This document shows positions 28,137 through 40,499 of a stretch of 64,000 bases of DNA, one piece after another. Position 1 is the stretch's first letter. Every line of letters starts with the position of its first letter. The translations under genes were made by a program, and so were the position numbers. The stretch spans positions 1 to 64,000 of the IMG/VR virus record IMGVR_UViG_3300049846_001717; one strand, written 5' to 3'. Source of the stretch: a virus. The notes beneath the pieces are model-generated. The model worked only from the letters and a program-made list of their open reading frames with translations, was not told where the DNA came from and searched no databases.

Positions 28137-28209
28137 AACCCCCGGTGGGACTCGAACCCACATCTCCTGTTACGGTGGCCCGTTTAGGAAACGGGACCGA
28201 TACGGGGGG
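28137..28209 (-). tRNA. tRNA-Arg(CCU)-like, D-arm replaced
   Basis: A standard T-arm (GTGGG, TTCGAGT, CCCAC) and a 5-bp anticodon arm with loop TTCCTAA (CCU) are clear, and the acceptor pairs over 6 of 7 bp. Only TATCGGT links acceptor and anticodon arm, too short for a D-arm. CGGT pairs with ACCG beyond the arm, so a stem encloses the anticodon arm. The two Ile(GAU) genes share this plan. Confidence 0.7.
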
Positions 28210-28216
28210 CAACTGT

Positions 28217-28429
28217 TTATCGAGGGTCGGTGTTGTTTTTGAACGCGTGGATTGCGATCTCGGCCTCCCACAACTTGTTTTCTACGTGTTCATCGTATGG
28301 ATATCCGTTTTGCTTCTTCGATTCATCCAACCAATATCGATACGAGTCGATTAGAACTCGTAGGATAGCTTTGGACTGAGGCGATTTAACCGACGCCTCT
28401 ATTGCGTCCAGTTCGTCATAACTGATCAT
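28217..28429 (-). CDS. Small hypothetical protein
   Basis: A 70-residue helical protein (MISYDELDAIEASVKSPQSK...). Its ATG overlaps the stop of the upstream amber-containing gene (ATGA), so translation is coupled to it. No family is recognised. Confidence 0.6.
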   Translation of the reverse strand: MISYDELDAIEASVKSPQSKAILRVLIDSYRYWLDESKKQNGYPYDEHVENKLWEAEIAIHAFKNNTDPR

Positions 28430-28659
28430 GTGATACGTGCCTCAGACTTGCCGTTGACGGTGATGATTTCGAGCGTGCCCTTGAACTTGATACTACCCTT
28501 CGTGTGAGGGTTATCCGGCGTTTCCTTCGTAGAAAACCCGACCTGTGAATCTACATGCCACACGTAATGAGTTTGGCCCTTGTGTTTGATGACCCACGGA
28601 GGAATGCCCTACGGATCAGTGATATGAGCCTTGTTGAAATGAAAGACGATGGTATCCAT
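28426..28659 (-). CDS. Small protein gene with in-frame amber (TAG) codon
   Basis: From ATG at 28659 the frame reads MDTIVFHFNKAHITDP, then TAG at 28609-28611, then stays open for 60 more codons (GIPPWVIKHKGQTHYVWHVD...) to TGA at 28426. That stop overlaps the ATG of the next gene. The downstream half has no other start codon. A phage tRNA with anticodon CUA lies 0.9 kb upstream on the same strand, so the codon could be read through. A decayed gene is the plain alternative. Confidence 0.65.
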
Positions 28660-28660
28660 G

Positions 28661-28840
28661 TTACTTAGTGTCCAATTTATTAGCCAATGTTTTTAACTTT
28701 CTAAGAGCAGATTTATACTTCGTCACAGCAAGTTTCCATTCAGGGGATGAATATGTTCCACGTCGATAGGCATTTCCCCATTCATCAAGAATATTTTCCA
28801 TTTCATTCATTATAACATCATTTTTGTTAAGATTTTTCAT
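28661..28840 (-). CDS. Small helical hypothetical protein
   Basis: 59 residues from the ATG at 28840, which overlaps the TAA of the upstream gene (TAATG) and follows SD GAGGAG. It is Lys-rich and helical (SALRKLKTLANKLDTK). Its base composition is more AT-rich than the structural genes, as with the next two genes. Confidence 0.6.
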   Translation of the reverse strand: MKNLNKNDVIMNEMENILDEWGNAYRRGTYSSPEWKLAVTKYKSALRKLKTLANKLDTK

Positions 28841-29061
28841 TACCACTCCTCGTATGAGGTAACATCCAATGTTTCATTGGTTAATGCATCATGAATTTTA
28901 ACAATGGTTCCCAAGCCAGTAGGCGTAAAACTATAAGTAAATCTACCACCAGCGGCACCGGTGCGGCGCGATATCTTCTTTTCTTTAATTATCGTATCCA
29001 AAAATTCTACCCACTTTTCAATTTTTGGAGCGGCATCAAGTGGTATATTAAATAGAGTCAT
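28840..29061 (-). CDS. Small hypothetical protein
   Basis: A 73-residue protein (MTLFNIPLDAAPKIEKWVEF...) with a Gly/Arg patch SRRTGAAGGRFTYSF. It overlaps the Pth2-like gene by 4 nt. No family is recognised. Confidence 0.6.
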   Translation of the reverse strand: MTLFNIPLDAAPKIEKWVEFLDTIIKEKKISRRTGAAGGRFTYSFTPTGLGTIVKIHDALTNETLDVTSYEEW

Positions 29062-29417
29062 TTCACAAGTGATAGATGTTTAAGTGCTTTTGCCTCTTCT
29101 CGGGTCAATGGACCGATACCAAGTGCAGTCATAATAGGGTTGCCATCAAAGTGAGGAGGCATAACATGGCCAGAATCAATGATGAGACTGTGTGGCCACC
29201 CATTGGCCTTCGCCAGTTTGACCAAGGCACGTATATCGGTGACAGAGCCTTCTAGAGTGACCTTCGTACCCAATCCACCCTTCTGATAGAGCCTGGCACG
29301 CCTGGGATTGAGTTGAACACACTCCAAATACGAATTAAGGAAAGCGTGACCCGCTTGAGCGGCCAGCTTTCCTGTCGGCATGTGTAAATCTTTACGAACT
29401 ATGGCATAGAGCTTCAT
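29058..29417 (-). CDS. Peptidyl-tRNA hydrolase, Pth2 type
   Basis: A 119-residue protein: KLYAIVRKDLHMPTGKLAAQ, AGHAFLNSY, TKVTLEG, LIIDSGHV and TALGIGPLTREEAKAL. The last two are the Pth2 fingerprint (usually TVLGIGP near the end). Pth2 frees tRNA from dropped peptides and is typical of archaea and eukaryotes but also occurs in phages and some bacteria. It fits the phage tRNA and tmRNA equipment around it. Confidence 0.88.
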   Translation of the reverse strand: MKLYAIVRKDLHMPTGKLAAQAGHAFLNSYLECVQLNPRRARLYQKGGLGTKVTLEGSVTDIRALVKLAKANGWPHSLIIDSGHVMPPHFDGNPIMTALGIGPLTREEAKALKHLSLVK

Positions 29418-29442
29418 GTTGACTTCATCTTCCTAGAACATA

Positions 29443-29530: not shown

Positions 29531-29602
29531 AGCTCGTGGCGAGGCTTGAACTCGCTTCTTTCGTTTTAGAGACGAAGGCACCGGCCGATATACCACACGA
29601 GC
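29531..29602 (-). tRNA. Amber suppressor tRNA, anticodon CUA
   Basis: All four arms fold: acceptor GCTCGTG/CACGAGC, D-arm, anticodon stem TTCGT/ACGAA with the 7-nt loop CTCTAAA, short variable loop and T-arm GCGAG/CTCGC. U33 is kept and positions 34-36 read CUA, pairing with UAG. N73 is U. The first 20 bases resemble the neighbouring tRNA-Val(GAC). The amino acid it carries cannot be told. Confidence 0.9.
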
Positions 29603-40355: not shown

Positions 40356-40429
40356 TGGACACCACGGGAATCGAACCCGTCACATCGTCATTGCGAATGA
40401 CAATCGCCACCCTTGGTACATTGGCGCCC
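40356..40429 (-). tRNA. tRNA-Ala(CGC)
   Basis: Stem TGTCA/TGACG (one G:U), loop TTCGCAA, anticodon CGC. Acceptor GGGCGCC/GGTGTCC includes two G:U pairs. No CCA is encoded. Confidence 0.85.
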
Positions 40430-40499
40430 GAGCCCGCAACCGGCGATGTCCCGGCGAGTTGACCTCCCTTCAACTCTTTCATGCGGCGGATTATTTCAA

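Follow-up and report, generated by a model that had tools for sequence, protein, structure and literature searches.

A conserved early stop codon in two small phage genes, beside a matching suppressor tRNA, suggests a translational gate

The window, the stretch of 64,000 nucleotides analysed here, comes from a virus record of 98,055 bases and carries a small gene that we have called HFNK after a conserved motif of its protein (FHFNK). The gene lies on the minus strand, which the original prediction did not give, and is listed with its neighbours in Table 1. Translated from 28659 to 28426, the frame reads MDTIVFHFNKAHITDP up to an in-frame TAG and GIPPWVIKHKGQTHYVWHVDSQVGFSTKETPDNPHTKGSIKFKGTLEIITVNGKSEARIT from there to the terminal stop. 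As had been claimed, this TAG (28611-28609) is the only internal stop and readthrough would give 77 residues, the frame is open on either side of it (a single protein family matches both halves, without a change of frame), and the gene is coupled to the next one by ATGA, its terminal TGA overlapping the ATG of the ORF at 28429-28217. Between the window and the closest relative of the gene (L002, a 105-kb contig of another phage; 70% identical), substitutions at the first, second and third codon positions number 2, 2 and 7 before the TAG and 14, 11 and 37 after it; the third-position excess on both sides indicates that both sides are constrained and that the frame is more than chance. In these two phages, the TAG lies within the gene, at a predicted loop, as an additional codon that most relatives lack. 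Because the reading frame does not change across it and no more than one codon is added, we set aside a cryptic intein, intron or frameshift.

Table 1. Features of the HFNK and Pth2 region of the window
Feature	Position	Strand	Remarks
HFNK gene, one in-frame TAG, 77 residues if read through	28426..28659	-	predicted all-beta fold, pLDDT 92
Amber codon within the HFNK frame (codon 17)	28609..28611	-	predicted loop, residues 15-21
70-aa ORF, joined to the HFNK gene by ATGA	28217..28429	-	no Pfam match
61-aa ORF immediately upstream of the HFNK gene	28661..28846	-	no Pfam match
73-aa ORF between Pth2 and the HFNK gene, overlaps the Pth2 end	28840..29061	-	no Pfam match
Pth2 gene (PF01981) from the upstream ATG	29058..29441	-	PF01981 E 1.6e-17 for 29417-29061
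TAG in the extended Pth2 frame (codon 3), the second in-frame TAG	29433..29435	-	in-frame ATG 5 codons later
tRNA, anticodon CUA, presumed amber suppressor	29531..29602	-	ARAGORN (label tRNA-Pyl)

A confident structure prediction gives the HFNK product a small, beta-rich fold. The product has no significant match in sequence searches of Pfam, PHROGs or the PDB, and Foldseek gave no match in the PDB (best E 0.77) and, in BFVD, only phage proteins that are unnamed or doubtfully named (best E 2e-3). A second structure model, of a 188-residue form, has a pLDDT of 82; the Foldseek results stem from the other model.

The original prediction was right that a TAG-bearing gene lies here, but the operon holds a second one, outside its view. 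By profile this gene is Pth2, peptidyl-tRNA hydrolase 2, with a predicted hydrolase activity; PF01981 scores 64.2 bits in the window, 27.5 in L004, 25.8 in L010 and 31.5 in the phage LRRHood, against a curated cut-off of 23. The upstream frame of the window Pth2 runs ATG-TTC-TAG-GAA-GAT-GAA-GTC-AAC-ATG, where the second ATG, at 29417, is the plain start, and the stop is ambiguous because this ATG lies in frame just past it. Further Pth2 genes with a stop are found in metagenomic phages and in huge phages, and the stop is in Pth2, in the HFNK gene or in both, varying between phages. Four relatives whose HFNK gene has no TAG (L004, L014, L015 and L051) have one in the upstream gene, Pth2. We note that two different phages, L173 and L123, have an internal Pth2 TAG at the same place (..FP#.., with # for the stop), which could be a moved lock or mark a recoded phage.

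An IMG/VR search gave 60 HFNK relatives; no relative was present in a search of genome contigs. In L002 the TAG is at precisely the codon where the window has it; 48 of the 59 other IMG/VR relatives have an in-frame TAG too, usually 1-9 codons past the ATG. Most relatives had seemed to be without a start codon because the TAG parts the gene from an ATG 1 to 9 codons earlier (for example, ATG-TCA-TAG-ATT-GAA-TAC). Since L002 keeps the TAG at the identical codon and most others have it within a few codons of the ATG, it is not specific to one strain. Altogether 50 members, Rhizobium phage RHph_I1_18 among them, carry the stop in 30 distinct contexts, and in all 50 it is TAG. An ordinary nonsense mutation that leaves the gene dead or truncated in this strain, the alternative first offered and what a single genome with one TAG in a small gene looks like, is thus for practical purposes refuted by the conservation of the stop at the L002 codon and across the 50 family members, by the third-position excess on both sides, and by the absence from the family of TAA and TGA, which would be equally expected.

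The CUA tRNA of the window is on the same strand as the HFNK gene, in a large cluster of tRNAs with a tmRNA gene among them; L002 likewise has a tmRNA gene, and its CUA tRNA is 377 bp upstream of the HFNK gene. Of the HFNK loci, 45 have a CUA tRNA by ARAGORN, in every case on the strand of the gene and at a median distance of 337 bp, and in 22 of the 45 it is the only tRNA. The program misses odd tRNAs: a CUA tRNA is legible but uncalled in L015, L032, L043, L050 and L181. Several observations on other tRNAs are recorded here in their own right. A tRNA-like sequence at 28137-28209 of the window (minus strand), uncalled by ARAGORN, has by eye the anticodon CCU (Arg), and L002 has a tRNA-Arg(CCU) at the matching place. 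At 40356-40451 of the window (minus strand), ARAGORN calls a tRNA whose anticodon has four bases (acca); the gene may be degenerate or may encode a frameshift suppressor. A tRNA-like gene in L186 (5405-5499; contig G010 85405) has a palindromic insert, CCTAGGTCCTAGG, at the anticodon loop, and in L061 (5968-6144) a truncated HFNK gene is fused right behind the 3' end of a CUA tRNA.

Conservation of the stop within families would also be expected if it inserted a chemically needed residue, in the manner of selenocysteine or pyrrolysine. We consider this highly improbable. The stop moves between codon 2 and codon 17 and several members do without it; its place is a loop or the N-terminus, which is variable; and the tRNAs are diverse and of ordinary shape (69-78 nt), with a window discriminator that differs (U73, against A73 in most of the 26 aligned CUA tRNAs).

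In cultured phages, a Pth2 stop and a CUA tRNA are found together in Sinorhizobium phage Phosso, Serratia phage BF (MTH#NDKTW), Pectobacterium phage CBB (MAQ#NEKTW), Cronobacter phage GAP32 and Salmonella phage Arash, while RHph_I1_18, with its stop in the HFNK gene, also encodes the cognate tRNA. Several of these genes are unannotated in the phage records or annotated from an internal start. The tRNA called tRNA-Phe in the Arash record (L268 4310-4384) has the anticodon CTA by ARAGORN. Agrobacterium phage Atu_ph07 has a TGA in its Pth2 frame (SD..ATG-ATT-GGC-GAA-CAC-TTT-TGA-ATT), and ARAGORN on the whole genome gives 30 tRNAs, of which one has a UCA anticodon and none has CUA; our pattern search for TGA/UCA tRNAs had missed the UCA tRNA, which is already published (PMC6102473). 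Pattern searches of phages whose Pth2 has a plain start (phiM12, phiCbK, Gurke, SCTP-2, prophi86-1 and RaK2) found no suppressor tRNA. LR756511, at first an exception, has a second Pth2, MTH#VETP.

Counted by record, stop and cognate tRNA occur together in 57, the stop alone in 6, the tRNA alone in 4 and neither in 8 (p = 6e-5), and for named phages the same table reads 9, 0, 3 and 6 (p = 0.009); these numbers, deduplicated by hand, are a guide, and the p values overstate independence, since the records are related. A stop was present and the cognate tRNA not found in L024 (a 188-kb contig), in L055 and L170 (14-kb fragments), and in LR756504 and LR745206, for which ARAGORN scanned about 80 kb around the gene. 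The 84-kb fragment L051 has a Pth2 TAG and no CUA tRNA; it has two UCA tRNAs (L206, contig 54520 and 56932). Conversely, a CUA tRNA is present and a stop in Pth2 or HFNK absent in L017, RAS14 (L121), Astolliot (L131) and XacN1 (L234), the last of which has a Pth2-like domain without a stop. For Stenotrophomonas phage Summit, Pth2 was not found, nor was HFNK by tblastn of the phage collection. Summit does have a short ORF (SD-ATG-AAG-TAG-GTC-TAC-AAG-CCG-CCG-TAA; L091 49440-49942) upstream of gene 069, perhaps an amber-controlled leader, and gene 069 ends 6 bp before the suppressor tRNA of the phage.

An unbiased scan of all loci for an ATG, a few codons, a TAG and an open frame, with hits clustered by homology, ranked the HFNK cluster first and Pth2 second (49 and 20 loci with TAG). 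When TGA or TAA replaced TAG in control scans, the largest clusters had 4 and 3 loci, respectively. The remaining clusters were set aside as antisense frames or as a plain stop followed by the next gene. The HFNK and Pth2 families together give 57 distinct stop contexts, in which the stop matches the anticodon of the phage's suppressor tRNA: 56 are TAG, with a CUA tRNA in most records, one is TGA, with a UCA tRNA, and none is TAA. TAA is nonetheless the commonest terminator in the fetched loci, where the 1046 ORFs that reach 80 aa end in TAA 652 times, in TGA 268 times and in TAG 126 times. An A stands directly 3' of the gated stop in 51 of the 57 sites; the ordinary TAG stops of these loci have it in 24 of 75 (p = 1e-11). 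A or G following UAG favours amber suppression.

A CUA tRNA is the hallmark of phages in which TAG has become a sense codon throughout (code 15), the window phage has such a tRNA, and a further internal TAG is present in the Pth2 of LR756501 and of L173. Global reassignment nevertheless has very little to recommend it: TAG still ends ORFs, not only the 126 in the loci but also 25 of 141 in the window genome, and the genomes G000 and G001 share no second in-frame TAG in a gene-sense frame, other matches between them being antisense or in tRNA-rich stretches.

A more serious alternative is that translation starts past the stop, at ATT, GTG or another codon, and that ATG-x-TAG is only a leader or a minigene, which might supply Pth2 with peptidyl-tRNA as substrate. 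The codon after the gated stop is mostly ATT (AT in 45 of 57 sites), and the window Pth2 has its second ATG after the TAG. LRRHood, Myrna and Phabba, all mycobacteriophages, have a start codon, TAG and GTG in direct succession, with a CUA tRNA just downstream; the GTG is an annotated or possible start, and as it may be the true one, we regard these three as weaker cases. (A leaderless mRNA for the mycobacteriophage Pth2, from TTGACA-N18-TACCGT before the ATG, is still a guess; a strict promoter scan was empty.) However, the TAG in the window and in L002 comes after 16 conserved codons that include the FHFNK motif, so a later start would remove conserved sequence. In phages that use Shine-Dalgarno sites, such a site stands at a fixed spacing to the HFNK ATG, with the TAG 1 or 9 codons on, and not to the post-stop codon (for example, in L033), which disfavours an ATT start; the post-stop codon itself varies (AAT, AAC, ACA, CTT, CCC and GGC also occur). 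Since a downstream start would in addition leave the exclusive use of TAG and the TGA/UCA pair unexplained, we suggest that it is unlikely.

The TAG is probably a selected functional stop that is read as an amino acid by the phage's own CUA suppressor tRNA. Suppression by this tRNA had been proposed from the window, and it is by far the best reading of the sequence comparisons: the stop is conserved, its codon matches the suppressor, the tRNA is close, one phage has switched to TGA and UCA, and the open frames are constrained. The expectation that would have told against it, a sense codon in the relatives, fails. As read from the genomes, an early stop is found in the same two small genes of many unrelated large bacterial viruses, beside a matching tRNA, and the two genes appear to be switched on only once the phage tRNA has been made. 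We infer that readthrough occurs and is needed, that it serves to time expression or to hold down leak, and that an amino acid is inserted at the gated stop. Early in infection, host RF1 (RF2 for TGA) would stop ribosomes within a few residues; after production and charging of the phage tRNA, some of them would get past the stop, and Pth2 and HFNK would appear. Translation would then need both the mRNA and the suppressor tRNA, which would make it an AND gate and amount to a coherent feed-forward delay with low leak. Early Pth2 might harm early translation by hydrolysing peptidyl-tRNA, but this is speculation.

The stop might instead belong to a feedback sensor, in which the product would act on suppression, RF1 or peptidyl-tRNA and the stop would measure the activity of the suppressor or RF1, somewhat like the frameshift autocontrol of RF2. 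One of the gated proteins is a peptidyl-tRNA hydrolase, an enzyme of translation quality, and the tmRNA genes of the window and L002 point the same way. However, the fold search for HFNK gives no function. A plain gate, in which expression needs the tRNA, fits the data equally well as the sensing of suppressor level, and we hold the feedback sensor to be possible but doubtful. Returning to the gate, we think it reasonably probable, though less so than the functional stop itself, that a widespread natural circuit is at work, with a nonsense codon as the lock on an operon of Pth2 and a beta-rich protein, and the adjacent suppressor tRNA as the key. Lock and key would change together (from TAG/CUA to TGA/UCA), and the lock would move within a gene or between the genes of the operon.

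If true, the circuit would give a general reason for suppressor tRNAs in phages of standard code. To our knowledge, the use of a tRNA as a translational switch has otherwise been known only in engineered systems and in global changes of the code. Candidate targets for phage suppressor tRNAs can now be named in cultured phages, so the question is directly testable in laboratory strains, and early nonsense codons in phage genes, we would warn, need not be mutations. We found no prior report in the open-access literature of Pth2 or HFNK as targets of a suppressor tRNA. A stop very near the start codon leads gene callers to drop or truncate the gene, and searches that extend annotated genes consequently miss it.

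Lone suppressor tRNAs of the same kind have been described, with the target unnamed, in the standard-code phages Summit (PMC9022506), XacN1 (PMC5852040), Atu_ph07 (PMC6102473) and RsoM2USA (PMC8504454); targets were sought and not found in the first two reports. Atu_ph07 is one of the present cases, for which we propose Pth2 as the target where PMC6102473 names none. Code 15 phages (PMC9523058, PMC10607447, PMC13037316) resemble the present ones in that a phage CUA tRNA reads TAG, but there TAG is sense in many genes, whereas here it is an ordinary stop and, in one or two small genes, a putative readthrough stop. In tRNA-dependent lysogeny (PMC10865867), a phage tRNA also has a dedicated role; unlike in the proposed gate, it replaces a host tRNA lost by integration and no stop codon is involved. 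The closest likeness is to a synthetic feed-forward 'leak dampener' (PMC7969014), in which translation of a gene that has a nonsense codon near its start likewise has to wait for a suppressor tRNA, and of which that report also describes an opal version. The leak dampener was engineered in E. coli, whereas the phage arrangement, known here from sequence, is natural and has conserved target genes.
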